From Gammaproteobacteria bacterium (GTDB lineage Bacteria; Pseudomonadota; Gammaproteobacteria; Arenicellales; UBA868): a stretch of DNA of 64,000 nucleotides. The stretch is from positions 1 through 64,000 of the forward strand of contig JAKUQR010000013.1 in the NCBI GenBank assembly GCA_022450155.1, written 5' to 3'. Every line of letters begins with the position of its first letter. The stretch's first letter is position 1. Below, in pieces: positions 3,385 to 63,953 of the stretch. Under the pieces are notes generated by a model, which ran no database searches, was not told where the DNA came from, and saw nothing but the letters and a program-made list of their open reading frames with translations. The position numbers were made by a program, and so were the translations under genes.

Positions 3385-3864
3385 TCAGCGCTCCGTTCCA
3401 GCCGGTGGACCTTCCGTTGCCGGGCCGTGGCGGCTGGGTTCTTCGCCGTCGCCATCCAGGCCGTGATAGCGGGGCAGATCGTCGGCGACGTCGAACCAGG
3501 CGATCCGTCGACTGTGGTACCAGTGCAGGCTGGGAACGTAAGCGTCGGGATCGTCGAAGGTGCTGATGTGAAACTCGATAGTCCGGGGGTCGTCTTTCTC
3601 GCTCTCAATGGTCAGCGGGGTTCCGCATTGGTCGCAGAACGCCCGCCCCACCCCCGGCGAGGACTGGTAGATCTTGCGTTCCCCTTCCGTGAACCGGACC
3701 TTGTCGGCCTCGAAAATTACCAGCGTGACGACCGGTGCGCCGTTGTGCCGCCGGCAATCCGCACAGTGGCAATGGCCGGTGACCACAGGCTCGCCCATGG
3801 CCTGGAAACGTACCGCGCCACAAAGGCACCCGCCGGTCCCTGTTTCAGGTCTGTCACCCTTCAT
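3385..3864 (-). CDS. GFA (glutathione-dependent formaldehyde-activating/CENP-V type) zinc-binding protein
   Basis: The protein has 159 residues with the GFA fold signature: C-L-C-G-A-V-R-F near the start, H-C-H-C-A-D-C-R-R, then F-C-D-Q-C-G-T-P-L. These cysteines bind two zinc ions in the family. Family members are mostly of unknown substrate; only a few have been tied to glutathione-formaldehyde adducts, so no reaction is assigned. I chose the ATG at 3864 because GGAGGA lies 8 bases upstream. The frame is open up to 3933, but the extra 23 residues have no family counterpart. A Gly/Pro/Arg-rich tail of ~25 residues follows the domain. The gene lies alone between repeats A and B, which suggests it moved or was duplicated together with them. 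Confidence 0.85.
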   Translation of the reverse strand: MKGDRPETGTGGCLCGAVRFQAMGEPVVTGHCHCADCRRHNGAPVVTLVIFEADKVRFTEGERKIYQSSPGVGRAFCDQCGTPLTIESEKDDPRTIEFHISTFDDPDAYVPSLHWYHSRRIAWFDVADDLPRYHGLDGDGEEPSRHGPATEGPPAGTER

Positions 3865-4673
3865 CGCAGCAATCCTCCGCTGAATCGGTACCCAAAGGAA
3901 ATCACGTCGAGCGGCACAGAGCAAACGACTCATTCAACAGCCTCAGCCAGAAGCGGACATTCAGGTTTCGCCGTTCGACTCGAGAGAATAGGAATTATAT
4001 ACAGTCAATCAGCGCCATTGGTGAAGTCTCCAACGGGTGAACTGGACTGGCTCGGGCGATAGTCACGGACATCGACTGGGCCGGCCATGGTGGTGGTGAC
4101 TTTCCGTTTGTGAGGCTGTGAGATAGGGGCAAGAGGGTTACGGGCAGATCAAAGAGGAACCCTAATCCCTACAGATCAATCCCCGTTCTCAGTGGAACGA
4201 TCCACTGGCCCCTTGTCTTGTTATCGGGACCCATCGATCAGCACACAACCCTGTGCGAGCTATCCGCTGAACCGTAGGTTTGCAAGGTCGTTTAAGCCAT
4301 TCTGGTGCATGTATTAAGCAATGGACCCTGATTCGACTAAAGCACGCACGAGAATCCCTAGTATTTGGCTAGAACATAGGCTTTTTACTCTAAAGACCCA
4401 TGATTCAAGGGCTCAGAAAATGGCTTATTTACTGGGTTGTTTCGATAGTCCCGGTTTTAAGAATCGAAGCAAACAAACTTCAGTTCCATCCTAAACCTTA
4501 TATTTATGGAGATTCCAGTATCTGTCCGTCTGTACCTTTGTCTTCCTGTCAGCCTGGCGTTTCACCAGATCCTCTGCTCTGGTTGCCCCTCTGTAACAGG
4601 AATAAGATAGCGGTAGGAAACGCTTCTGCTCGATTTTTTGCTACCCTGACCGCACTCATGGAGGATGAATAAA
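3865..4673. other. Gene-free stretch containing repeat B
   Basis: About 800 bases without a convincing gene. It contains repeat B (4147-4256). The only longer frame, 4400-4672 on the plus strand, has a translation with no domain-like pattern and no ribosome binding site, so it is not called. The last 30 bases hold the ribosome binding site of the next gene. Confidence 0.6.
4147..4256. repeat. Repeat B, right copy of the ~110 bp hairpin-bearing direct repeat
   Basis: Direct copy of 3165-3276. The core inverted repeat CAGTGGA-ACGA-TCCACTG (4190-4207) is identical to that in copy A, as are most of the ~40 bases to its left and TATCGGGAC to its right (copy B reads TTATCGGGAC). The second hairpin is imperfect here (GCACA 4241-4245 with TGTGC 4252-4256). 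The repeat has no coding capacity. It resembles a small non-autonomous element or a structured RNA more than a terminator, because no T-run follows either stem. Confidence 0.8.
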
Positions 4674-6537: not shown

Positions 6538-6720
6538 CTACCGACTAGGTCGTACGTTCACCTTTCGGCACCGTCGGCATTCTCTCTTCTCAACAGCCCC
6601 GCCCCGACCAAAGCTACTGGTAACACTGATAATGCGGTAGTCGTGTACACCCGCCAGGCATAACATCCACCCGGCAAAATGCCGTGCACTGTTTTTTTGC
6701 GTTGGAGGTAACTGATTCAC
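6538..6720 (-). CDS. Small cysteine-rich protein, possible zinc ribbon
   Basis: The product has 60 residues. Its C-terminal 42 contain L-C-L-A-G-V-H-D-Y-R-I-I, a Gly-rich turn (F-G-R-G-G-A-V) and E-C-R-R-C-R-K-V. This pattern is seen in small bacterial and prophage proteins with a C-x-x-C pair near the end. The GTG at 6720 has a good GGAGG (complement of 6727-6731) 6 bases upstream, which is the main reason to believe the gene. The in-frame ATG at 6666 would leave only the conserved part. Function unknown. Confidence 0.45.
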   Translation of the reverse strand: MNQLPPTQKNSARHFAGWMLCLAGVHDYRIISVTSSFGRGGAVEKRECRRCRKVNVRPSR

Positions 6721-9356: not shown

Positions 9357-11027
9357 TTACCCGACGGGCAATGCTCGTTCAAGAATCAAATTGAAATCCG
9401 TACCGGCTGGTAAAGTGCCGTAACTACCTAGCCAGTGGGACCCAAGCCGAGTGGCGCAGAAAGCATCCGACACCGGAGTTGGTGCATGCTGCACTAGAAG
9501 CGTAGCTTGTAATGTTAAAGCAATCAGTTCAGTCAACTGTCGTGCCCGCGTTTCCAAATCTTCAGGGTCGCCAAGTTCCGCAACCAACCTGTCTATGGCA
9601 ACATCCAACAGAATGTTTTCATGCCGTACGGATTCGAGTTCGGTCAGAATCGCTGGGATGGCTGCGGTCTCTCTAAACATGGCCCGTAATACATCCAGGC
9701 ACATGATATTTCCTGACCCCTCCCAGATACTGTTCAGTGGTGCCTCACGATAAAGACGGGGCATGATCGAGTCTTCGATATAACCTGGGCCCCCAAGGCA
9801 TTCAAGGGCCTCAACACAATGAGCCGGTGCCCGCTTGCAGATCCAGTACTTACCGACAGCTGTGACAATGCGCGCAAATGCCGCTGCTTGCTCGTTCTCG
9901 GCTGATTCATCGATTGCGCGACCAAGTCGCAATGTCAGTGCCAACGCAGCCTCCGATTCAATCGCGAGGTCAGCAAGCACATTGCGCATTAAGGGCTGAT
10001 CAATGAGCTTTTTATTGAACGCAGCCCGGTATGCTGTGTGATGCATGGCCTGCACCAGCCCTTGGCGCATCAGGCCAGCAGAACTGGCACAACAGTAGAA
10101 GCGAGTGCCTCGCACCATTTCAATGATTGTCGGGATGCCCCTGCCCTCCTCGCCAACCATCAATCCCCAGGTATCCTGATATTCCATTTCTGAGGAGGCA
10201 TTTGACCGGTTACCGAGTTTATCTTTGAGTTGCTGTATAAAAAGGGCGTTACGTTCACCATCCGGTCGCCAGCGTGGAACCAGAAAACACGACAGACCAT
10301 TATCTGTGTAGGCCAGTGTCAAAAATGCGTCGCACATCGGCGCCGAACAGAAGTACTTATGTCCAGTGAGGTAGTATTCAGCGGCCTCCCCCGTCTGGAC
10401 ACCCACAGGAATGGCTCGAGTAGAGTTAGCCCGCACGTCTGAACCACCCTGTTTCTCAGTCATGAACATGCCCATGGTGGCACCGGTCTTTTGGTGTACC
10501 GGAATATCGCGTGGGTCATATTTTTCTACCAGCAATCGGGGAATCCATTCATCCCCAATGACTGGTGTCATCCGCAACGCGGGTATTGCTGCATAGGTCA
10601 TTGCCATGGGGCAGAGCACGCCACCCTCAGCCTGGGTAAACAGGTAAGTCAACGCCGCGTGTGCAACCTGTCCACCGGACCGCGGATTTTTCCAGGCAAA
10701 ACTCGGAACATCATTCTCGATCGCCAAGGCCATCAGTTCATGGTAGGCCGGATGGTAGTCAACCTGATTAATACGCATCCCATAGCGGTCAAAAGCCCGC
10801 AGCTCGGGTGGATAACGGTTGGCAAGATCAGCCTTTTTGAACGTTTCGGCCGAACCGGTGTCCCTACCAAACTCGCTCAATCTTTCTTGCGCCCAACCAG
10901 CGCCTTCTCGCTCGATGCCTTCGTGAAGAGCCTGGTCATTCGACCACAGATCCTGGTCGCCAATATAAGGCGGCATATTTTCGACATCATGGGTGGGAAG
11001 GTTAGCAAGCGGTCTAGCGGGAATCAT
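9357..11027 (-). CDS. AidB-like acyl-CoA dehydrogenase
   Basis: The 556-residue flavoprotein belongs to the acyl-CoA dehydrogenase superfamily. It shows M-T-E-K-Q-G-G-S-D-V-R (FAD-contacting region, ~residue 190), F-C-S-A-P-M-C-D, E-G-R-G-I-P-T-I-I-E-M-V-R-G-T-R-F and L-E-C-L-G-G-P-G-Y-I-E-D-S. The N-terminal extension (residues 1-170, with P-P-Y-I-G-D and L-W) and the total length match the AidB subgroup, which in E. coli is linked to the adaptive response to alkylation. Most AidB homologues have no proven substrate, so an isovaleryl-CoA-like activity is possible. The first gene is at 11027; it converges on the cupin terminator. Confidence 0.88.
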   Translation of the reverse strand: MIPARPLANLPTHDVENMPPYIGDQDLWSNDQALHEGIEREGAGWAQERLSEFGRDTGSAETFKKADLANRYPPELRAFDRYGMRINQVDYHPAYHELMALAIENDVPSFAWKNPRSGGQVAHAALTYLFTQAEGGVLCPMAMTYAAIPALRMTPVIGDEWIPRLLVEKYDPRDIPVHQKTGATMGMFMTEKQGGSDVRANSTRAIPVGVQTGEAAEYYLTGHKYFCSAPMCDAFLTLAYTDNGLSCFLVPRWRPDGERNALFIQQLKDKLGNRSNASSEMEYQDTWGLMVGEEGRGIPTIIEMVRGTRFYCCASSAGLMRQGLVQAMHHTAYRAAFNKKLIDQPLMRNVLADLAIESEAALALTLRLGRAIDESAENEQAAAFARIVTAVGKYWICKRAPAHCVEALECLGGPGYIEDSIMPRLYREAPLNSIWEGSGNIMCLDVLRAMFRETAAIPAILTELESVRHENILLDVAIDRLVAELGDPEDLETRARQLTELIALTLQATLLVQHAPTPVSDAFCATRLGSHWLGSYGTLPAGTDFNLILERALPVG

Positions 11028-11420: not shown

Positions 11421-12314
11421 CTAGAGATGGCCGGTCATCTGCTCGCGGTATTGTTCCCTGAGGCGACCTGCAGCAACGACCGTATTGCGCATCAGCACGG
11501 CAACCGTCACCGGACCAACCCCCCCAGGGACGGGTGTAATCCAACCAGCGACTTCTCGGCAGGAGGTGTAGTCGCAGTCCCCGACGATTCTGAATTTGCC
11601 CTCATCATCTTTGACCTGATTGATTCCGATGTCGATGACCGCAGAGCCTTGACGAATCATGTCTCCTTTTAGAAGGCCTGGTTTTCCGACCGCAATCAAG
11701 ACCGCGTCGGCCGCACGTGAATGCAACGCTACTTCCCGAGTCAGGTGATGACAGACCGTCACAGTTGCCCCTTCTGCCATCAACAGAAAGGCTATTGGTT
11801 TGCCTACAATCTCGGAGTGACCTATGACGGTCACCTCCAGTCCCTCTATCGACAAACCGGTGCCGCGAAGCAGTTCAACTGCTGCGATTGCTGTACAAGG
11901 GCCTAACTCGAGTTCCCGATACACGATATTTCCAATTGACGTCGGATGCATCCCTTCAACATCCTTAAGTGGATGAATCGTAGCCTGCAGGTGTTTAATC
12001 GGCAGATTTTCAGGGATCGGTCTTTGCAGAATTATCCCCGTTATGCGTGGATCAACATTCAAGTTGACGATTGCCGCATGAACTTCGGCTTCGGAAATAT
12101 CGGGAGGAAAATATTTCTCTACAAAATCAATTCCGACTTTCGATGCATTGCGCTGCTGGTTACGAACATAACGGTCGACCGCAGAATTATCGCCGATCCG
12201 GATAGAGACCAGTGTCGGTGCCCAACCATCCTGCTTTAATGCATCGACATCAACAGCTACCCTCTGCAAGATCTCGTTGGCAACCACTTTCCCATCGATT
12301 TCAATGCCAGTCAT
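11421..12314 (-). CDS. folD: Divergent FolD-family methylene-tetrahydrofolate dehydrogenase (FolD1)
   Basis: The 297-residue protein has the full FolD fold: R-Y-V-R-N (49-52), I-I-L-Q-R-P-I-P (94-101), K-D-V-E-G (117-121), the dinucleotide-binding G-H-S-E-I-V-G-K-P (165-173) and T-P-V-P-G-G-V-G-P near the end. FolD normally oxidises 5,10-methylene-THF with NADP and then hydrolyses methenyl-THF. Compared with the second FolD in this window (21277-22158), with which it shares numbering, the catalytic Lys53 is Gln53, Asp120 is Glu120, Arg166 is His166 and Ser190 is His190. The first change is expected to abolish cyclohydrolase activity and the last two to weaken NADP binding. It stands in a run of minus-strand genes with wide gaps and may have its own promoter. 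Confidence 0.9.
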   Translation of the reverse strand: MTGIEIDGKVVANEILQRVAVDVDALKQDGWAPTLVSIRIGDNSAVDRYVRNQQRNASKVGIDFVEKYFPPDISEAEVHAAIVNLNVDPRITGIILQRPIPENLPIKHLQATIHPLKDVEGMHPTSIGNIVYRELELGPCTAIAAVELLRGTGLSIEGLEVTVIGHSEIVGKPIAFLLMAEGATVTVCHHLTREVALHSRAADAVLIAVGKPGLLKGDMIRQGSAVIDIGINQVKDDEGKFRIVGDCDYTSCREVAGWITPVPGGVGPVTVAVLMRNTVVAAGRLREQYREQMTGHL

Positions 12315-12503
12315 AGCCTCACCTACCTTCTTGATTCACGCGGATGACAATCGGCCTTAGCCTGGAACAGTACAAGTCCACGCCAAAGACTAGACCCTGC
12401 AGATGTCATTGTAGAACCCGAATCACCTAAATCGGGAACTCAGTAAAGGAGGTCCAATATTGGGTTACCAACTCCTGTCCAGTGCACTTAATTCTGAAGC
12501 GAG

Positions 12504-13154
12504 CTAGATAGCTTGGGTATTCAAGTACTCCAGGAGTTCGGCGGGTGCATCAGAAAGGTGCCCGGCACGGACCTCTTTAAGTTCGCAACGGCTGCCGTAA
12601 CCCCAGAGCACGCCCGTTGATTGAAGCCCGTTACTGTGGGCTGCCAAAATATCGACTGAACGATCACCGATCATCATCGAGCGGTCTGAAATCTCTGATG
12701 ATTCCAATAACACTGCGATCTGCTGTGACTTGCTGATACCGATCTCCCCACCACTGACAAATCTGAAACACTCTGTCAGCTCAAACATCTGCAGTATCTT
12801 TTCCGCAATATCGTTTCGCTTCGACGTGCAGATACCAAGATTACAGCTCTGCAGCTGGTAGAGCCCATCAATAACCTCGCGCATGCCGTCATACATGACA
12901 TTTTCGCTGAATCCAACCTCGAGGTAGCGTTCCCGGTACTTGTCCACCATGCTGGGTATCTGCCTTTCGTCGACATCAGCCGCGAGGTGGTAATACATCT
13001 GATCCAGCGGCAATCCGATCAGGCTCGAGATCTGTTCTGTCGAGCACGGCTCAAAACCGTGATGGATCAGCGCGTAATTAATCGAGCGGGATATCCCTAC
13101 ACTGGGGTCGCTGATTGTTCCATCAAGATCAAAAATGAGGCTATCGTAACGCAT
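12504..13154 (-). CDS. HAD-superfamily phosphatase, phosphoglycolate phosphatase-like
   Basis: The 216-residue protein begins with the HAD nucleophile motif I-F-D-L-D-G-T-I (D9 and D11). It has a helical cap (residues 16-85), motif II Thr/Ser in I-C-T-S-K, and the motif III/IV region I-S-K and M-I-G-D-R-S-V-D-I. Cap type and length fit the Gph/PgmB group, which dephosphorylates small phosphorylated sugars or phosphoglycolate; the substrate is not certain. It lies 26 bases downstream of the RAM-domain gene on the same strand and is probably in the same transcript. Confidence 0.85.
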   Translation of the reverse strand: MRYDSLIFDLDGTISDPSVGISRSINYALIHHGFEPCSTEQISSLIGLPLDQMYYHLAADVDERQIPSMVDKYRERYLEVGFSENVMYDGMREVIDGLYQLQSCNLGICTSKRNDIAEKILQMFELTECFRFVSGGEIGISKSQQIAVLLESSEISDRSMMIGDRSVDILAAHSNGLQSTGVLWGYGSRCELKEVRAGHLSDAPAELLEYLNTQAI

Positions 13155-21276: not shown

Positions 21277-22158
21277 CTATTCCACAGTGAAGTCGGCTCC
21301 ATTTACCGCACAGGCTGCCTGAGCCGTATTGCGCAACAAACACGCAATCGTCATTGGTCCCACCCCACCGGGTACCGGTGTAATCGCGCCTGCCACAGCG
21401 CTCGCTGACACGAACTCCACATCTCCCACCAGCCGGGTTTTGCCGTTCTCACCATCGATACGATTGATTCCCACATCAATTATCGTTGCACCCGGTTTTA
21501 TCCAGTCCCCTTGTATCATCTCGGCTCTACCCACTGCTGCAATGAGTATATCCGCCTGCCGACAAACATCGATCAGATCTTTCGTACGTGAGTGCGCGAC
21601 CGTCACAGTACAGTGTGCCGCAAGGAGCAGAGCAGCCATCGGCTTACCGACAATATTGGATCTACCGACAATCACCGCATTCTGACCCGACAAATCACCG
21701 GCATGCGCACGCAGCAGCATCATACAGCCCAACGGCGTACAGGGGACCAGTCCAGGCTCACCAGTCGCCAATCGTCCGACATTGACCAGGTGAAATCCGT
21801 CAACATCCTTGTCTGGATCGACCGCATTAATCACGGCATGGGCATCGATCTGAGCAGGCAGCGGCAACTGAACCAGAATCCCATGGACCGCTGGATCACC
21901 GTTAAGCTGCTCGATCAGCGCCAGGAGATCGTCCTCGGTCGTCTTATCAGGCAGGCGGTGTTCGAACGATGCCATGCCGACTTCGACCGTCTGTTTACCC
22001 TTGTTTCGGACATAAACCTCACTGGCAGGATCTTCACCGACCAACACCACGGCGAGCCCGGGTACCAACCCATGGCTTGATTTAAGACCGCTCACAACAT
22101 TCGCAACGCGTGCTCTTAATTCTGCTGCGAACACCTTGCCATCAATGATTCCGGCCAA
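21277..22158 (-). CDS. folD: Bifunctional methylene-THF dehydrogenase/methenyl-THF cyclohydrolase FolD (FolD2)
   Basis: The 293-residue enzyme has all canonical FolD residues: Y49-V-R-N-K53, I-L-V-Q-L-P-L-P (94-101), K-D-V-D-G (117-121), G-R-S-N-I-V-G-K-P (165-173), A-H-S-R-T (188-192) and [11 protein letters not shown]. It interconverts methylene-THF and formyl-THF with NADP. It starts 11 bases after the stop of the formate dehydrogenase alpha gene on the same strand, so it is the last gene of that operon. This links folate-bound one-carbon units to formate oxidation. Its stop is only a few bases from the convergent dnaE2 stop. Confidence 0.96.
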
Positions 22159-22169
22159 TGCAGTCTCTT

Positions 22170-24914
22170 TTACTTTGTAGCGGCCAGATTAACCGCGCAG
22201 TATTTTACTTCTGCTATTTTCCCGACTGGGTCTAGGGCCGCATTGGTCAGGAGATTGGCTGCAGCCTCCTGGTAGCAGAACGGAATAAATATGGATTTAG
22301 GCTGCAGACCGTCGTCTGATCGACAGGGTGCGATGATCTCACCCCGCCGGGACGAAATCTTCACGAGGTCTCCGTCTTTCATCGCGAGCGCGTTTAAATC
22401 ATCCGGATGGATATAGAACACTGCTTCGGGCTCGATGGCATCGAGAACAGTCGCTCGTCGAGTCATCGCACCTGTGTGCCAGTGTTCCAACTGTCGGCCT
22501 GTGATCAATACAAAAGGGTAATCCTGGTCTGGCCTTTCATCGGCCCACCTGAGGCCAGCCGGCACAAATCGCCCACGGCCACTGGCTGTCGGGAAACTTT
22601 CTTCAAAAACCACACTCTGTCCCGGATCAGACTCCCCCTCACATGGATAGGTCACGCTGTGCTCGATTTCCAGTCGTTCCCAGGTCAGGCCGGAAATACT
22701 GGGCATTGCATCGCGCATTTCATTGAAAACTTCACGAACATCAGCATAGTGCCATTCCAGCCCCAGCCGTTTCGCGATCTGCTGAATGATCCAGAGATCC
22801 TGACGCGCATCGCCAGGTGGATCGAGCGCCTGTCGGCCCATTTGAACACGCCGGTCTGTGTTTGAAAATGTACCGGTTTTTTCCGGGAACGCCGAGGCCG
22901 GCAGAACCACATCCGCGAATGCTGCTGTTTCGGTCAGAAACAGATCCTGCAATACCAGATGTTCGAGCTTGGCCAGCGCGGCACGGGAATGGTTCAGGTC
23001 CGGGTCAGACATGGCTGGATTCTCGCCCATGATGTACATCCCCTTGATCTGTCCGGAGAGCGCGGCATCAGTGATCTCGACGACAGTCAGGCCTGGGGCA
23101 GTATCGAGTTCGACACCCCAGTAATTCGAAAACCAAGCGGATGCTTCGGGATCGTCCACACGACGATAGTCCGGGAACATCATGGGAATCAGACCGGCAT
23201 CAGATGCACCCTGCACATTGTTCTGGCCGCGCAGAGGATGTAATCCTGTACCCGGGCGTCCGATATTGCCGGTCATCATAGACAACGCGATCAGGCAACG
23301 GGCGTTGTCTGTGCCGTGAACATGTTGTGATATACCCATTCCCCAGAAGATCATGGCGCGTCTCGACTGACCATAGGCGCGAGCAACGCAGCGAATCTCC
23401 TCGGCATCTATGCCACAGATCTCGGCCATATGCTCAGGGCTGAAGTCCTTAACATTTTCACGTACCAGATCAAAATCCGTGGTGCGGTCAGCGATGAACT
23501 GCTTATCAACCAGGTCTTCGTCGATAATGGTATGGATCATCGCGTTCAATAACGCCACATCGGTGTCCGGACGAAACTGCAGGTAGTGAGTGGCATGGCG
23601 TGCCAGCTGGTTTCTACGCGGGTCCATAACAATCAAGGTGGCACCTTTTTGTGCGGCATTCTTCATGAATGTCGCCGCAACCGGATGGTTCTCAGTCGGA
23701 TTGGCACCGATGACAATTATGACCTCTGCCTGCTCAACATCGGCCACCTGATTGGATACAGCACCAGACCCTATTCCTTCCAACAAGGCAGCAACGGACG
23801 ATGCGTGACACAACCGCGTGCAATGATCGACATGATTACTGCTAAAACCAGTGCGAACCAGTTTCTGAAACAGATAAGCTTCTTCGTTGCTACCTTTGGC
23901 CGAGCCCAATCCAGCGAGGGCATTTGGACCATTCTCTGACAATATGGTCTTGAACCCCTGAGCTGCAAAATCAAGCGCTTCATCCCAGCTAACCGGCCTG
24001 AAACTTTTCAGAGGATCAGTTGGATCAAACTGATCAGTCAGACCCTTTGCAACACCATCTCGTCGTATCAGCGGCTGAGTAATTCGGTCCGGGTGGCTGA
24101 CATAGTCAAATCCATAACGCCCCTTAACACACAGCCTTCCATGATTGGCCGGTCCGTCACGACCCGTAACATACTTAATCTGTTTGTCTTTAATGTGATA
24201 AGTCAGCAGACACCCCACACCACAATAAGGGCACACTGAGTCCACGGTGGTGTCATCACTCTCCTGCGCGACGTTCCCCGATGGCATCAGAGCGCCTGTC
24301 GGGCAAGCCTGCACGCACTCACCACAGCCCACGCAAGAACTCTCGCCCAAACCGTCACCGAGGTCAAAAACAATCTCAGCGCGGGCACCCCGGTATGCCA
24401 GCCCAATTACGTCGTTGACCTGCACTTCACGACAGGCGCGCAGACAACGCGTGCATTGGATACAACTTTCAAGGTTGACAGCTATTGCGGGATGTGACTG
24501 GTCGGCGGGTGGCTGGGTTCGGCCACCAAATCGACTCTCAGACAGCCCACGACTCTCACACCAATACTCCAACTCCGAGACCGGGCTGTGGCGGGCGGGG
24601 CCCACTTCGCCCTTCAGCAGTTCCAGGACCAGCGACTGCGAGCGTAATGCTTTGTCGCTTGTCGACTGAACATTCATTCCCTCAGTCGGTTGCCGACAAC
24701 ATGCTGGCGCCAACACGCGTTCACCTTCAATTTCAACCATACAGGCCCGGCAATTGCCGTCAGCACGCAGTCCTTCCGAGTAGCACAGGTGGGGAATGTC
24801 AACACCACTCTTTTGTGCGACCTGGAGGATGGTTTCTTGTGGCTGGGCAGTGACCGAACGGCCGTCAAGTAAAAAGCTAATCGGCACCACTTGTTGATTC
24901 CCCGGTCTATTCAT
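22170..24914 (-). CDS. fdsA: NAD-dependent formate dehydrogenase, catalytic (alpha) subunit
   Basis: The 914-residue molybdenum/tungsten enzyme oxidises formate to CO2. It has an N-terminal [2Fe-2S] domain (C44, C55, C58, C72), two cysteine-rich ferredoxin segments (C-I-Q-C-T-R-C and [12 protein letters not shown]), and a [4Fe-4S] motif C-P-Y-C-G-V-G-C followed by L-C-V-K-G-R-Y-G. The bis-MGD catalytic domain has the metal-binding Cys in C-T-R-L-C-H-A. It uses Cys rather than selenocysteine: no in-frame TGA occurs. The ATG overlaps the stop of the beta/gamma gene by 4 bases, and folD follows. No fdhD-type sulfurtransferase gene is in the cluster. Confidence 0.95.
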
Positions 24915-26593
24915 TCAGCACCCACATCCTCTGGGAAATACCGAATTACTGTACGTATTGGATTCGGCGCTGCCTGACCTAAGCCGCATATGGATGCATC
25001 TTCCATGACACAGGCCAATTCCTCAAGCAGGTCTGTATCCCACTTCGGCGACTCCATCAGGCGCTCTGCCCGATCGCAGCCTACACGACAGGGCGTACAT
25101 TGACCACAGGATTCGCGCGAAAAGAATCGCATCGTATTCAGGGCCGCTTGCCTGGGACTATCCTGGTCGGACAAGATAATCACGGCAGCTGAACCGATAA
25201 AACTGCCGTGCGCCTGCAATGTATCAAAGTCGAGCGGCTCGTCACCCAGCGAAGCGGGAAGAATCCCTCCTGAAGCACCCCCGGGAAAGTAGGCACGAAA
25301 TGTATGACCATCCAGCATGCCACCACAGAATTCGTCAATCAACTCTTTCACACTGATTCCGGCTGGAGCCAAGTGCACACCTGGATTATTGACACGGCCA
25401 CTGACAGAAAAAGACCGTAGCCCGCGCCGGCCACGGCGGCCCTGGCCAGAAAACCAACTCGCACCACGCTCGAGTATGTCCCGAACCCAGTAGAGTGTTT
25501 CACAGTTGTGCTCAAGCGTCGGCCGACCGAAAAGACCGACTTCCGCAACGTATGGGGGCCGTAGACGTGGCATGCCGCGCTTGCCTTCGATCGACTCAAT
25601 CATTGCTGATTCTTCACCGCAAATATACGCACCGGCCCCCCGCCGAAGATGGATCTCAGGCAATTTGCCATCGAGTATCGGACCCAACTCTTTAACCGCC
25701 TCCTCAAGTATCTGCAGCACGCCCGGATATTCATCACGCACATAGAGATAACAGCAGTCGATACCGATTACCTCAGCAGCGATCAGCATACCTTCAATAA
25801 ATCGATGTGGATCACGCTCAAGATAGTATCGATCTTTGAATGTACCTGGCTCACCTTCATCGATATTGACGGCCATCAGTCGAGGCGCTGGCTGATCCTT
25901 CAGAATCCGCCACTTTTTCCCGGCCGGAAATCCGGCCCCACCCAGGCCACGCAGATCGGAACCGTCAAGTTCATCCAAAATATGATCGTGGCTCAGAGAC
26001 CCAACTCGGCAGGCTTCATAAGTTCTATAACCGTCGCCACGCCTGTACTCCTCGACCCCGATCCAGTCAGGCTGTACTGCGATTGCCGTGCTGCCTTGCC
26101 GAATTGCATCTGATACTTGCGCGACAGTTGCCCTGGAAATAGGATTTTTCCCCACCACTGCCACGGGCGCCTCATCACAGCGGCCCACGCAGGGGACTCT
26201 CTGGACCCTGACATTATTCCCCAAATTCGCCTGAAGCGAGCTGATCAGCGCCTCTGACCCAAATAGCTCACAAGTCACTGAATCACACACTCTAACGGTC
26301 AGATCCGGCGGTATAGGCTCGCCATCGGTAACAATATCGAAATGATGGTAGAACGTGGCAACTTCGTATATTTCGGCAGGTGCAAGCTTCATCAGATCTG
26401 CCAAAGCGACGATCCGTCCGCCAGTGATATGGCCATAGCGATCCTGCAGTTGATGTAGATATTCAATCAGTAGATCGCGCTGAATCGGCATATCGCCAAG
26501 GGTCGCCAGAACGGACTGTCGATCGTCTGAATCGACCTGTCGGGTTCTGTTACGACCAAGGCGCTTTTTTCGCCGCGGGCCAGTTGCTGTCAA
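24911..26593 (-). CDS. NAD-dependent formate dehydrogenase, fused gamma-beta (NuoE-NuoF-like) subunit
   Basis: The 560-residue protein joins two complex-I-like modules. Residues ~25-160 form a NuoE/FdsG-type [2Fe-2S] thioredoxin-like domain with C103, C108, C135 and C139. The rest is NuoF/FdsB: the FMN/NAD-binding L-G-G-A-G-F-P-A-G-K-K-W and G-E-E-S-A motifs, and a [4Fe-4S] motif E-S-C-G-Q-C-T-P-C-R-V-G-C near residue 490. It passes electrons from the alpha subunit to NAD. In many bacteria the two modules are separate genes (fdsG, fdsB). The fused gene is first in the operon, and its 330-base upstream region is shared with the divergent ccmA. Confidence 0.94.
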   Translation of the reverse strand: MTATGPRRKKRLGRNRTRQVDSDDRQSVLATLGDMPIQRDLLIEYLHQLQDRYGHITGGRIVALADLMKLAPAEIYEVATFYHHFDIVTDGEPIPPDLTVRVCDSVTCELFGSEALISSLQANLGNNVRVQRVPCVGRCDEAPVAVVGKNPISRATVAQVSDAIRQGSTAIAVQPDWIGVEEYRRGDGYRTYEACRVGSLSHDHILDELDGSDLRGLGGAGFPAGKKWRILKDQPAPRLMAVNIDEGEPGTFKDRYYLERDPHRFIEGMLIAAEVIGIDCCYLYVRDEYPGVLQILEEAVKELGPILDGKLPEIHLRRGAGAYICGEESAMIESIEGKRGMPRLRPPYVAEVGLFGRPTLEHNCETLYWVRDILERGASWFSGQGRRGRRGLRSFSVSGRVNNPGVHLAPAGISVKELIDEFCGGMLDGHTFRAYFPGGASGGILPASLGDEPLDFDTLQAHGSFIGSAAVIILSDQDSPRQAALNTMRFFSRESCGQCTPCRVGCDRAERLMESPKWDTDLLEELACVMEDASICGLGQAAPNPIRTVIRYFPEDVGAE

Positions 26594-60479: not shown

Positions 60480-60572
60480 ATGACCTTTGACCCCCTTGAA
60501 AATCGTCCAGACACCCAATCTAAACCCCATGAAAAACGATCAAGAACCTTCAGCAATCGCGTCTTCACCTGA
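60480..60572 (+). other. Short frame overlapping the phnW start
   Basis: The ATG at 60480 follows AAGGAG by 5 bases and opens a 30-residue frame ending at 60570-60572, in a different frame from phnW. The phnW frame has only a TTG at 60487 and an ATG at 60529 nearby. The short frame may be an upstream leader that couples translation, or a sign of an indel at the phnW start. Confidence 0.35.
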
Positions 60573-61680
60573 TGGTGATCCTTGGCTTTTCACACCCGGA
60601 CCGCTCACGACATCACCCGCCGTAAAACGGGCGATGCTGCACGACTATGGCTCCCGTGACAGCCGCTTTATTGACATCAATAACCGCATTCGCCAACACT
60701 TGACCCAGATCGTCAATGGCCAAAACACGCATGTCTGCGTGCCGGTTCAGGGGAGCGGTACTTTTGGGGTAGAAGCAATGCTGATTACGTTCATACCCCG
60801 ATCCGGAAAAGTGTTATTACTTGTCAACGGTGCATACGGTAAACGTATGATCGATATCTGTTCAATACATGAGCGAGCGTACACAATACTCGAAACAACC
60901 GAAGATCTGCCTGTAAATACTGACGAACTTGATCGGCGACTTGCCGCAGATCCCGACATTAGCCATGTTGCCGTAGTCCACTGTGAAACTACGTCAGGCA
61001 TCTTGAATCCAATTGAAACAGTTGCCAAGGTCACGGCCGAGCATCGACGGTCTTTGCTGATCGATGCCATGAGTTCATTCGGTGTTCTACCGCTTGATGC
61101 ATGCGATTCTCCATTTGACGCGGTCGTTGCATCCAGCAACAAATGCCTGCAAGGATCTCCTGGAATAGGGTTTTGTATCTGCAATATCGAAACTCTCAAA
61201 CAATCCAGCGGCAATTCCGACACGCTGGTGCTGGATCTGTACAGTCAGTGGAAAGCCATGGAACGCAATGGCCAGTGGCGCTTTACACCACCAACCCACA
61301 CGATATTGGCTCTGGGGCAGGCGCTGACGGAATTCGATGCCGAAGGTGGTGTAGCGGGACGGGGCCGCCGTTATCGACACAACTGTGAAACCCTGGTCTC
61401 GGGCATGCGCACACTGGGGTTCAAGACCCTGCTCCCAGATGAACTTCAATCGCCCATAATTGTAACGTTCCTGACACCTGCCGACCCTAATTTCCAGTTC
61501 GATAGATTTTATGAAGAGCTCCGAAAACGTGGCTACATTATTTATCCGGGCAAACTGACAGTAAGCGATTCGTTTCGGGTCGGTTGCATTGGACACATTT
61601 CCGAAGGCCAGGTTCGCGGACTGATTGACGCTATTCGCGACACGCTTGGGGTCATGAGTGTCAGCAACTGTGGTCCCTGA
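60487..61680 (+). CDS. phnW: 2-Aminoethylphosphonate-pyruvate transaminase PhnW
   Basis: The ~397-residue PLP enzyme moves the amino group of 2-aminoethylphosphonate to pyruvate, giving phosphonoacetaldehyde and alanine. It shows L-F-T-P-G-P-L-T-T-S, V-Q-G-S-G-T-F-G-V-E-A, C-E-T-T-S-G-I-L-N-P, D193 in L-I-D-A-M-S-S-F-G, and the PLP lysine K219 in S-S-N-K-C-L-Q-G. The start is unclear: TTG 60487 is about 12 bases from AAGGAG, and ATG 60529 would drop 14 non-conserved residues. It is the first gene of phnW-phnA-phnX. Confidence 0.93.
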   Translation: MTPLKIVQTPNLNPMKNDQEPSAIASSPDGDPWLFTPGPLTTSPAVKRAMLHDYGSRDSRFIDINNRIRQHLTQIVNGQNTHVCVPVQGSGTFGVEAMLITFIPRSGKVLLLVNGAYGKRMIDICSIHERAYTILETTEDLPVNTDELDRRLAADPDISHVAVVHCETTSGILNPIETVAKVTAEHRRSLLIDAMSSFGVLPLDACDSPFDAVVASSNKCLQGSPGIGFCICNIETLKQSSGNSDTLVLDLYSQWKAMERNGQWRFTPPTHTILALGQALTEFDAEGGVAGRGRRYRHNCETLVSGMRTLGFKTLLPDELQSPIIVTFLTPADPNFQFDRFYEELRKRGYIIYPGKLTVSDSFRVGCIGHISEGQVRGLIDAIRDTLGVMSVSNCGP

Positions 61681-61704
61681 CCTGTTGTATGCCATAACAT
61701 CACC

Positions 61705-62967
61705 ATGCGCTATGTGACCTGCAATAACCGGCAGTACCGCTGGCCCGACAGACCTGTCGTTGTGATCTGCCTGGACGGCAGTGAACCTGGCTACCCGCTG
61801 TCGGATGGTGGTGGTTATATTGACCGTGCCATTGAGAACGGTCATATGCCCTATCTGGCTTCGATCAGAAACCGCGGGTTGTTTCGAACCGCTGATGCCA
61901 CGATTCCCAGTTTCACCAACCCCAACAACATTTCGATTGTGACTGGAACACCACCGGCCGTTCATGGCATATCAGGCAACTTTTTTTACGACCTTGAGTC
62001 CAACGCTGAAGTCATGATGAATGATCCTGTGTTTCTTCGCGTGGGTACGATTTTCAAAGCATTTCAGGATCAGGGCGCAAAAGTCGCTGTGATCACAGCT
62101 AAAGACAAACTCAGGCGGATGCTCGGTCATGAACTCGATTTTGATCAAGGCAGTGCAATCTGCTTTTCCGCCGAAAAATGCCAGCTGACCACACAGAGTG
62201 AAAACGGCATAGACGATGCCGGCCAGCTGACTGACCTGTCACCGCCGGATGTCTACAGCAGCGCATTGTCTGAGTATGTATTTTCCGCCGGCCTGAAACT
62301 TCTGGATACCTGGGCGCCTGACATACTCTACCTGTCGACCAGTGACTACATCCAGCACAAACACGGGCCTGGAACCGCGACAGCAGATGCGTTCTACAGC
62401 ATGATTGATGATCACCTTCTAAAGATGCAAGCACACGATGCCATCATTGCCCTGACAGCCGATCATGGTATGAAAGCGAAACACGATTCAGTCGGGCAAC
62501 CGAATATCGTCTATCTGAAGCCTCTCATCGACGAACTATTGCCTTCTGATAGATTCCGAATCATCCTGCCAATCACAGATCCGTACGTAGTACATCATGG
62601 TGCACTGGGTGGATTCGCCACAATCTACCTGGCCGACCCGGTCGATATACAACCCGTATGCCAGAAATTGTCGGCACAGAAAGGGATCGAGCTGGTACTT
62701 GAAGGCCCGATAGCCTGTGAGAGATTTTCCTTGCCCCTGGACCGGGTGGGTCATATCGTGGTGATTTCCAGCACTGAGTGGGTTTTAGGACATTCTCAAC
62801 AGTATCATGACCTATCAGCGCTCTCCGAGCCTCTACGGTCGCATGGGGGGCTGTCCGAACAACGGGTACCGTTTATTCTGAACCGTCCGGCATCTCAACT
62901 GCTCGCCAGCACCAATTTACACAACTACGATATTTTCGACGCTGCCCTCAACCACGCGACTGTCTGA
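61705..62967 (+). CDS. phnA: Phosphonoacetate hydrolase PhnA
   Basis: The 420-residue zinc enzyme of the alkaline phosphatase superfamily cleaves phosphonoacetate to acetate and phosphate. It has I-C-L-D-G-S-E-P-G-Y (Asp24), the nucleophile Thr71 in P-S-F-T-N-P-N-N, G-I-S-G-N-F-F-Y-D, and L-T-A-D-H-G-M-K-A-K-H with further zinc ligands. It begins 24 bases after phnW. Its substrate is normally made from phosphonoacetaldehyde by the dehydrogenase PhnY, which is not in the window. Confidence 0.93.
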   Translation: MRYVTCNNRQYRWPDRPVVVICLDGSEPGYPLSDGGGYIDRAIENGHMPYLASIRNRGLFRTADATIPSFTNPNNISIVTGTPPAVHGISGNFFYDLESNAEVMMNDPVFLRVGTIFKAFQDQGAKVAVITAKDKLRRMLGHELDFDQGSAICFSAEKCQLTTQSENGIDDAGQLTDLSPPDVYSSALSEYVFSAGLKLLDTWAPDILYLSTSDYIQHKHGPGTATADAFYSMIDDHLLKMQAHDAIIALTADHGMKAKHDSVGQPNIVYLKPLIDELLPSDRFRIILPITDPYVVHHGALGGFATIYLADPVDIQPVCQKLSAQKGIELVLEGPIACERFSLPLDRVGHIVVISSTEWVLGHSQQYHDLSALSEPLRSHGGLSEQRVPFILNRPASQLLASTNLHNYDIFDAALNHATV

Positions 62968-63104
62968 CCGGATTCATCCATGCAGACCTCCTGCCCAGAA
63001 AGCAGAAGTCAGATAAAATACAATTCCGCAGCTCATCTGCCGATGTAGATTGTCCAGGAACCACGTCAAATTCACTGATTACCTACGACTCTTAAGGAGT
63101 TTCG

Positions 63105-63953
63105 ATGACCATCCGACAAGACTTCGTCTATAACCGCAGCTACACAGGCCAAGTGAAAGGTCTGATTCTTGACTGGAGCGGCACCACAGCCGATGCGTAT
63201 GTACTTGCCCCGGCTGTTGTATTTGTCCAAGTATTTCAAAAACACGGTGTCGAAGTCACGATGTCCGAGGCTCGTGGACCAATGGGACTGCGTAAAGATC
63301 TTCATATCAAAGCAATGACCGAGATTCCAGAAATTCGTGAGCGATGGCACGGCATTCACGGACAGTATCCTAATCAGGAAGATGTAGACCGGATGTTCGA
63401 AGATTTTGTACCCATGCAACTAGACTGCCTTCGTAATTACACAACGCTTCTGCCGCTGGTTGCCGAAACGACACAATCACTGCAGAAACAAGGCATTAAG
63501 ATCGGCAGTACTACGGGGTTCCTGCGCAGCATGGTAGACATCCTCGAAGAGGATGCCCGCAAACAGGGCTATACACCTGACGCTTCTGTTGCTGGCGATG
63601 AAGTAATCAACGGCGCCCGTCCAAAACCTTTCATGGTCTACCGCAATCTAGACCTCATGGACGTTCACCCGATCCAGTCCGTAATCAAAGTCGATGACAC
63701 TGTATCGGGAGTTGGAGAAGCCCTGGAAGCCGGCTGCTGGGGCGTAGGTATTGCACGCTATAGCAACTACATGGATATGGATACTCTCGAAGAAGCCGAC
63801 AGCTTGTCGGAAGACGAAATCAAACGACGTTTGGTACACACGCGGACGCTACTGCAAAAAGCAGGTGCGCACTACGTGATTGATACCTGGGAACAGATGC
63901 TGGACGTTATTGAGGATGTCAATATCAGGCTTGGTCGAGGCGAGAAACCTTAA
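63105..63953 (+). CDS. phnX: Phosphonoacetaldehyde hydrolase PhnX (phosphonatase)
   Basis: The 282-residue HAD enzyme cleaves phosphonoacetaldehyde to acetaldehyde and phosphate. It has the nucleophile D23 in L-D-W-S-G-T-T-A-D, the Schiff-base lysine K64 in M-G-L-R-K-D-L-H, S-T-T-G-F and K-V-D-D-T-V-S-G-V-G-E. Length is normal. AAGGAG lies 8 bases before the ATG. It is the third gene of the phosphonate cluster and lies 137 bases after phnA. Confidence 0.95.
   Translation: MTIRQDFVYNRSYTGQVKGLILDWSGTTADAYVLAPAVVFVQVFQKHGVEVTMSEARGPMGLRKDLHIKAMTEIPEIRERWHGIHGQYPNQEDVDRMFEDFVPMQLDCLRNYTTLLPLVAETTQSLQKQGIKIGSTTGFLRSMVDILEEDARKQGYTPDASVAGDEVINGARPKPFMVYRNLDLMDVHPIQSVIKVDDTVSGVGEALEAGCWGVGIARYSNYMDMDTLEEADSLSEDEIKRRLVHTRTLLQKAGAHYVIDTWEQMLDVIEDVNIRLGRGEKP

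Follow-up and report, generated by a model that had tools for sequence, protein, structure and literature searches.

Two proteins of the FolD family are encoded in the window analysed here, a stretch of 64,000 nucleotides on contig C13 of a 3.2-Mb gammaproteobacterial genome (handle G000). One of them, FolD2, has the residues of a canonical bifunctional enzyme, and the question that the locus raises is what the other, FolD1, does beside it. In the first-pass annotation, made from the sequence, FolD1 was taken to have lost the cyclohydrolase lysine and the NADP-phosphate residues, and was suggested to be possibly a dehydrogenase-only enzyme, perhaps NAD-using, that would supply methenyl-THF or run in the oxidative direction. 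The conservation of these changes, the company that the gene keeps and the readings that compete to explain both are the subject of this report.

Two FolD proteins in one genome

FolD1 and FolD2 are 41% identical, and both match PF00763 and PF02882 above the Pfam cut-offs. In the case of FolD1 the scores are 99.4 bits (cut-off 32.8) and 188.9 bits (cut-off 27), which places the protein within the FolD superfamily; these two FolD domains are its only Pfam matches, Mpt_N (PF09176) being absent among them. No further PF02882 protein over the cut-off is found in the window's genome. The more specific family models separate the two: FolD2 passes NF010785 (cut-off 396) with 491.7 bits, whereas FolD1 obtains 276.9 bits, its best NCBIfam FolD score, and scores too low for any of the 25 NCBIfam FolD models listed. 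The NuoE/NuoF-like subunit of Table 1 is probably the diaphorase of the formate dehydrogenase.

Table 1. Coordinates of the genes and codons discussed, as positions in the window
Feature	Position	Strand	Basis
folD1, FolD paralogue of the Q53/R98/E120/H166/E168/H190 clade	11421..12314	minus	ORF of 297 aa
folD2, canonical bifunctional FolD (K53/D120/R166/S190)	21277..22158	minus	ORF of 293 aa, over NF010785 cut-off
Formate dehydrogenase alpha subunit, next upstream of folD2 and co-oriented with it	22170..24914	minus	TIGR01591 over cut-off
NuoE/NuoF-like subunit	24911..26593	minus	scores below equivalog cut-offs
Q53 codon (Lys of the YxxxK motif in canonical FolD)	12156..12158	minus	alignment; coordinates computed from ORF start
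R98 codon (Leu, rarely Phe/Met, in canonical rows; human Leu101 counterpart)	12021..12023	minus	alignment
E120 codon (Asp in canonical rows; human Asp125)	11955..11957	minus	alignment
H166 codon (Arg, Ala or Gln in canonical rows; human Arg173)	11817..11819	minus	alignment
E168 codon (Asn in canonical rows except divergent L137)	11811..11813	minus	alignment
H190 codon (Ser, Arg or Lys in canonical rows; human Ser197)	11745..11747	minus	alignment

An AlphaFold2 model of FolD1 based on 39 sequences (pLDDT 92.5, pTM 0.90) predicts a FolD fold, with human MTHFD2 (6s4a) placed first by Foldseek among near-equal FolD/MTHFD entries. VIA-align returned Z scores of 35 to 40 for 38 FolD/MTHFD entries, 31.1 for yeast Mtd1 (1edz) and 24.9 for one further FolD; near-ties of this kind say nothing about the cofactor of FolD1.

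A conserved set of residues

At the positions of interest, FolD1 carries Y49, Q53, Q97, R98, E120, H166, E168 and H190, and FolD2 carries Y49, K53, Q97, L98, D120, R166, N168 and S190. The four differences first named (positions 53, 120, 166 and 190) are exact, and ORF translations and alignment place the two proteins in register, but R98 and E168 had been overlooked. All six changed residues recur in seven of seven FolD1 homologues (54-84% identical). When one genome from each of 84,980 species was scanned, 535 stretches proved to encode a relative (E 1e-3 or better), some perhaps from outside this clade, and the best 80 loci of these 535, two plasmid loci and the window together made up 83 clade members. 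In this set 53Q, 98R, 120E, 166H and 190H are present in 83/83, and position 168 is E in 81 and D in two; column 120 is biased here, as the scan patterns for 80 of the 83 loci included E120. Rows taken from whole genomes free of any pattern read YQQREHEH[L/M]H at positions 49, 53, 97, 98, 120, 166, 168, 190, 191 and 198 in 29/29 cases (28 distinct proteins, the window's own being counted twice), and the conservation of Q53/E120/H166/H190 as a clade is confirmed in both sets.

Canonical rows have K53, D120, R166, N168 and S190 in 23/23, two short fragments having been dropped before the count, and K53/D120/N168 in 19/19 of the pattern-free rows. At least one Arg or Lys is found among positions 166, 190 and 191 in all 19 canonical rows, as against none of the 29 pattern-free clade rows. 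Tyr49, Gln97 and the PVPGGVGP loop are kept across the clade alignment. The catalytic YxxxK motif reads Y49..Q53 in FolD1 and invariantly across the clade, and of the pair Gln97 and Asp120 typical of bifunctional FolD, the first is kept and the second is Glu in 83/83.

In the genome samples, full-length matches fall into two groups by their identity to FolD1, with 60-100% for the clade and at most 47% for the others listed; plasmid clade copies are 55-57% identical to FolD1, and the other plasmid rows listed reach at most about 42%. In a quick, midpoint-rooted tree of 79 rows, which gave a long-branch warning for L137 and L032, the clade forms one branch (length 2.09, SH-aLRT 99). Among named records, the closest relatives of the window's genome are MAGs, several of which carry the label Gammaproteobacteria or Acidiferrobacteraceae. 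Two copies sit under unexpected labels, namely that of L080 (Mycobacterium sp. KBS0706), placed beside Inquilinus in the tree, and that of L037 (Myxococcales bacterium RS415), 95% identical to the window's; in each case the label may be wrong or the gene may have moved.

FolD1 belongs, with near certainty, to a conserved and widespread FolD subfamily. The presence of FolD2 in the same genome might suggest that FolD1 is a decaying or redundant copy, a scarcely credible notion that is ruled out by the same residues in every member and by dN/dS values of 0.067, 0.083 and 0.094 between close relatives (three further pairs were saturated), which indicate purifying selection. No paper describing the subfamily was among the matches listed in a literature search, which is weak evidence of absence since subscription journals are sparsely covered.

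Catalysis and cofactor

A human K56Q mutant is said to keep dehydrogenase and to lose cyclohydrolase activity. Compared with the key residues given for the Leishmania and human enzymes in the excerpted text of PMC3368264 (Tyr52, Lys56, Gln100, Leu101, Asp125, Gly273 and Gly276), FolD1 has Lys56, Leu101 and Asp125 swapped (for Q53, R98 and E120) and Tyr52, Gln100 and the glycines kept. For the P. aeruginosa enzyme, the excerpt of PMC3338484 assigns to the lysine an acid-base role in the cyclohydrolase step and links the aspartate to the pterin. PMC9173628 doubts that the lysine takes part in the chemistry of dehydrogenation. The silkworm enzyme shares the numbering of FolD1 (Tyr49, Lys53, Gln97, Asp120); in PMC6443876, its K53A mutant has near wild-type cyclohydrolase activity (kcat/Km 0.097 vs 0.13) and its D120A mutant no detectable dehydrogenase activity toward methylene-THF. 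Since silkworm K53A keeps its cyclohydrolase, Q53 alone is no proof that FolD1 has lost this activity.

The same mutant lends support to a reading in which FolD1 is still bifunctional, R98 beside Q97 replacing K53, E120 adjusting to the change, and the cofactor preference, now for NAD, being all that has altered. R98 might stand in for the lost lysine, as R98 and Q53 always occur together (83/83 and 29/29); MTHFD2 and MTHFD2L are among the closest solved structures, and human MTHFD2 is NAD-linked yet bifunctional according to the PMC9173628 excerpt. The catalytic lysine is, however, thought to need an unprotonated amine (PMC3368264), which an arginine is unlikely to offer, and the clade is always accompanied by another FolD match or Fch in the genomes examined. 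Retained bifunctionality is thus considered unlikely. A dehydrogenase-biased FolD1, whose cyclohydrolase would be weak or absent, is a good deal more probable, based on residues that are invariant over deep divergence, on dN/dS of 0.07-0.09 and on the single supported clade.

That three of the seven human key residues of PMC3368264 are swapped together and then frozen could also indicate that Q53/R98/E120 fits a different pterin or methylated substrate, FolD1 acting on another C1 carrier or on an imine. Such a change of substrate is very unlikely: FolD1 retains Tyr49 and Gln97, Mpt_N, the N-terminal domain of MtdA/MtdB, has no match in the window's genome, and the C1 neighbours and co-occurring genes that were found are those of THF enzymes (Fhs and GCV_T-domain proteins).

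Regarding the cofactor, the NADP 2'-phosphate is contacted in the human enzyme by Arg173, His196 and Ser197 (PMC3368264, same excerpt). The claim that the NADP-phosphate residues are lost therefore holds in FolD1 for Arg173 and Ser197, swapped for H166 and H190, and fails for His196, whose counterpart His189 is kept. Nor does R166 serve as a general mark of NADP use, and its loss alone means little, because E. coli-type FolDs carry Ala at this position together with R190. It is the joint lack of Arg or Lys at 166, 190 and 191, combined with Glu or Asp at 168, that fits NAD throughout the clade, and that makes an NAD-linked FolD1 likely. More speculatively, the invariant H166, H189 and H190 with the acidic residue at 168 may hold NAD via a metal or phosphate, unlike the solution found in MTHFD2.

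A second FolD or Fch in every genome examined

The genomes examined that hold a clade copy number 64 (14 + 3 + 36 + 11 once repeats across overlapping samples had been removed), of which 62 have another FolD match and two have Fch together with an Mpt_N (MtdA/MtdB-type) gene. The repeats were G000, present in three samples; G123, G177 and G275, present in the class sample and among the handles; G348, which is G275; and, as judged by equal coordinates and scores, G357, G463 and G582, which are handles G351, G336 and G339. Among the window's relatives, 14/14 FolD1-positive genomes match a FolD in the canonical range, G003 by a contig-end fragment. A second FolD-like match is present in 38 of 40 handles (37 of 39 genomes, G275 being G348), and is more divergent in G325, G342 and G343. 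In the phylum sample the clade occurs in 15/396 genomes, all 15 with two or more FolD matches; the second match itself is listed for five (G000, G463, G586, G357 and G582) and given for the other ten as a count. In the class sample it occurs in 4/276 genomes, with only G123 devoid of another FolD.

This constant company of another FolD or Fch fits an enzyme that is unable to replace FolD, and would equally fit any accessory enzyme. In G123 and G345, where no other FolD match is present, Fch (PF04961) lies beside an Mpt_N (PF09176) gene; Fch was considered and rejected as FolD1's own cyclohydrolase, as it adjoins the Mpt_N gene and not FolD1, and the arrangement shows only that another cyclohydrolase source exists. 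In the window's genome, the partner that supplies the cyclohydrolase would, we infer, be the folD2 product. A third dehydrogenase/cyclohydrolase arrangement is found in Inquilinus limosus (L168:6597-7984, G325; also L137), whose genome has FolD1 and a divergent FolD (E97, G167, R168) directly followed by an FTCD_C/Fch-like match.

In crystals, FolD is dimeric. The genes of FolD1 and of a canonical FolD are immediate neighbours in L035, L098, L102, L103 and L106, and a dimer interface has been described (PMC3368264), all of which could be taken to mean that FolD1 is a subunit that pairs with canonical FolD in a heterodimer and tunes it. Such a role is most improbable given G123 and G345, which have FolD1 and no other FolD match, and the intact substrate and cofactor loops of FolD1.

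Neighbourhoods of FolD1 genes

On a Ponticoccus plasmid the gene order is formate dehydrogenase, Fhs, canonical FolD, the FolD1 homologue and Tdm, with serine hydroxymethyltransferase and other serine-cycle-type genes further along, and on a Paracoccus aminovorans plasmid the next gene to the FolD1 homologue encodes a BCCT transporter. In the cultured relatives Thalassobius and Thalassovita the genes are arranged fhs-folD1-folD. In many loci of the window's family the homologue is located between the glutamate-synthase-like and 129-aa genes on one side and Fhs on the other, with GMAS-like (glutamine synthetase type III-like), amidotransferase-like and GXGXG genes upstream; other loci have MttB-family, DAO-GCV_T or Rieske genes adjoining. 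Using ten query proteins, a C1 or methylamine gene was detected nearby in 33/80 FolD1 loci, and 13 of these 33 have the same arrangement of genes as the window's family. In a matched subset, such a gene was near 9/29 FolD1 and 2/30 canonical FolD loci, largely of the same genomes (Fisher p 0.021). Four genomes with adjoining FolD genes, three with a divergent FolD, G123 and G345 were left out of the canonical control before the count; control genomes with a pair of canonical copies contributed a single one (in G323 that lying away from FolD1), and some flanks stop at contig ends. The proposal that FolD1 runs oxidatively is accordingly backed by the genomic context of part of its relatives, which points to oxidation of C1 units.

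Co-occurrence was also explored at the level of genomes. Fhs is over the cut-off in 15/15 FolD1-positive genomes (in G493 in fragments only) and in 111/381 others (p 2e-8, kinship uncorrected), an association that is confounded by the kinship of the genomes; in 13 genomes tested apart, no Fhs was found in FolD1-positive G002 and G007 (81% and 85% complete). Within the window's family, an MgsC orthologue is present in 12/14 FolD1-positive and 4/11 FolD1-negative genomes (p 0.017, indicative only, as these are kin), and also in 8/16 genomes of the same order that lack FolD1. The N-methylglutamate pathway was rejected as a necessary partner of FolD1, its genes being present in 12/27 FolD1-negative genomes; they are missing from two FolD1-positive genomes (81% and 85% complete). 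An expansion of GCV_T proteins was likewise discarded as a mark of FolD1, since five FolD1-negative relatives have 7-13 matches, which makes it a family trait. The set in the window's 3.2-Mb genome is large, with 17 matches, 13 of them with E below 1e-30, and probably consists of THF-dependent methyl-transferring enzymes, common to FolD1-negative relatives.

Two further neighbours deserve mention. The 129-aa protein (L046:9303-9689; own-genome copy L169:5964-6350) follows the glutamate-synthase-like gene, is at least 81% identical to the L046 copy in all 16 loci in which it was detected and directly precedes FolD1 in 12 of them; it has no Pfam match at 1e-5 and no NCBIfam match at 1e-25. An M24-type protein is encoded near FolD1 in five loci (L061, L062, L065, L090 and L092); the L092 copy (11692-12942) is DddP-like at 350 bits, below the 600-bit cut-off, and possibly acts on another methylated substrate.

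The locus in the window and the operon on contig C23

No C1 gene was found neighbouring FolD1 within the window. An operon with its local neighbours (a HAD hydrolase, TrpD, a quinone reductase, an M24 peptidase and an AidB-like acyl-CoA dehydrogenase) was considered and set aside, as no C1 link was found; the TrpD scores over the cut-off as an ordinary TrpD, and in the 40 neighbour clusters listed the acyl-CoA dehydrogenase is confined to the closest relatives (L036-L039). Elsewhere in the same genome, contig C23 (L169) has the GMAS-like, amidotransferase, GXGXG, glutamate-synthase-like, 129-aa and Fhs genes in the usual order. In L046, to take one case, FolD1 (10001-10879) lies between the end of the 129-aa gene at 9689 and the start of Fhs at 10906. 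The corresponding interval of L169, from the 129-aa gene's last position, 6350, to the Fhs start at 6596, contains no FolD1. On the simplest reading, FolD1 left the N-methylglutamate/Fhs operon in the window's group and the pathway stayed.

Two other parts of the window are worth recording. Positions 3385-3933 hold a gene of the GFA family (glutathione-dependent formaldehyde-activating, PF04828), and positions 60487-63950 hold in a row a class V aminotransferase, a type I phosphodiesterase and a weak HAD match, which we take to resemble a phosphonate breakdown set.

A proposed role in methyl-group oxidation

On balance, the sequence data moderately favour FolD1 being an oxidative methylene-THF dehydrogenase, probably NAD-linked and with a weak or dead cyclohydrolase, for which canonical FolD would provide the cyclohydrolase during the oxidation of methyl groups. 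Participation in methyl-group oxidation is, as a part of this scheme, quite probable, owing to the formate dehydrogenase-Fhs-FolD-FolD1-Tdm and N-methylglutamate/FolD1/Fhs neighbourhoods and to the own-genome operon on C23. In the proposed sequence of events, methyl groups from methylated amines would enter as methylene-THF, which FolD1 would convert to methenyl-THF with formation of NADH. Hydrolysis by canonical FolD2 (in a few other bacteria by Fch) would then turn methenyl-THF into 10-formyl-THF, from which Fhs, operating in reverse, would release formate with a gain of ATP, leaving the last step of the oxidation to formate dehydrogenase. In this way canonical FolD would remain available for NADP-linked biosynthesis.

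A stronger version, in which the whole clade is an NAD-specific, cyclohydrolase-free FolD subfamily and serves THF-linked C1 dissimilation as its committed oxidative enzyme in users of methylated amines, is plausible but somewhat doubtful. The clade could then, with the same reserve, be seen as a bacterial counterpart of the MTHFD1/MTHFD2 split between NADP and NAD, the activities being divided between FolD paralogues.

If FolD1 is indeed NAD-linked and devoid of cyclohydrolase activity, the annotation of clade members as bifunctional, found in both annotated plasmid records (Ponticoccus and Paracoccus aminovorans), would need correcting. Bacteria would also be seen to separate oxidative from biosynthetic folate flux by means of FolD paralogues, and a genome sequence could reveal which way C1 units from methylated amines flow.

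Comparison with known systems

In the excerpts of PMC4543880, PMC4744692 and PMC3160333, which concern THF-linked C1 oxidation, FolD is handled as bifunctional only; the first of these has FolD run in both directions and mentions three folD-purU loci in the strain studied. FolD1 is like such bifunctional enzymes in its predicted fold, its PF00763 and PF02882 domains, Tyr49, Gln97 and the PVPGGVGP loop, and unlike them in the replacement of Lys53, Leu98, Asp120 and the basic 2'-phosphate pocket.

MTHFD2 and MTHFD2L belong to the closest fold group (best rows with Z of about 40 and rmsd of 1.2-1.5, tied with others), and the parallel with MTHFD2, which uses NAD with phosphate and Mg, would lie in the proposed NAD-linked oxidative role. 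At positions 166, 168 and 190 of FolD1, H, E and H take the place of the R, K and R of MTHFD2L; the two arginines presumably bind phosphate, and the MTHFD2-type Arg at both phosphate-adaptor positions is thus lacking in FolD1. The lysine that is Q53 in FolD1 is kept in MTHFD2L, as seen in the alignment, and in MTHFD2, as stated in the excerpt of PMC9173628.

The function proposed for FolD1, that of an NAD-dependent methylene-THF dehydrogenase, is also that of the monofunctional yeast Mtd1. The two share a fold, but the Z score of 1edz is under that of nearly all FolD/MTHFD entries listed, its identity to FolD1 is only 25%, and it is the weakest of 27 PDB sequence matches (single-sequence search, E 1.9e-09), far more distant from FolD1 than bacterial FolD is; FolD1 is not a member of an Mtd1-type subfamily.

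In methylotrophs that employ MtdA/MtdB and Fch, dehydrogenase and cyclohydrolase are split and cofactor pools are kept separate, and the proposed division of labour between FolD1 and FolD2 would be analogous in both respects. MtdA and MtdB, however, carry Mpt_N, whereas the only domains matched in FolD1 are the two of FolD.
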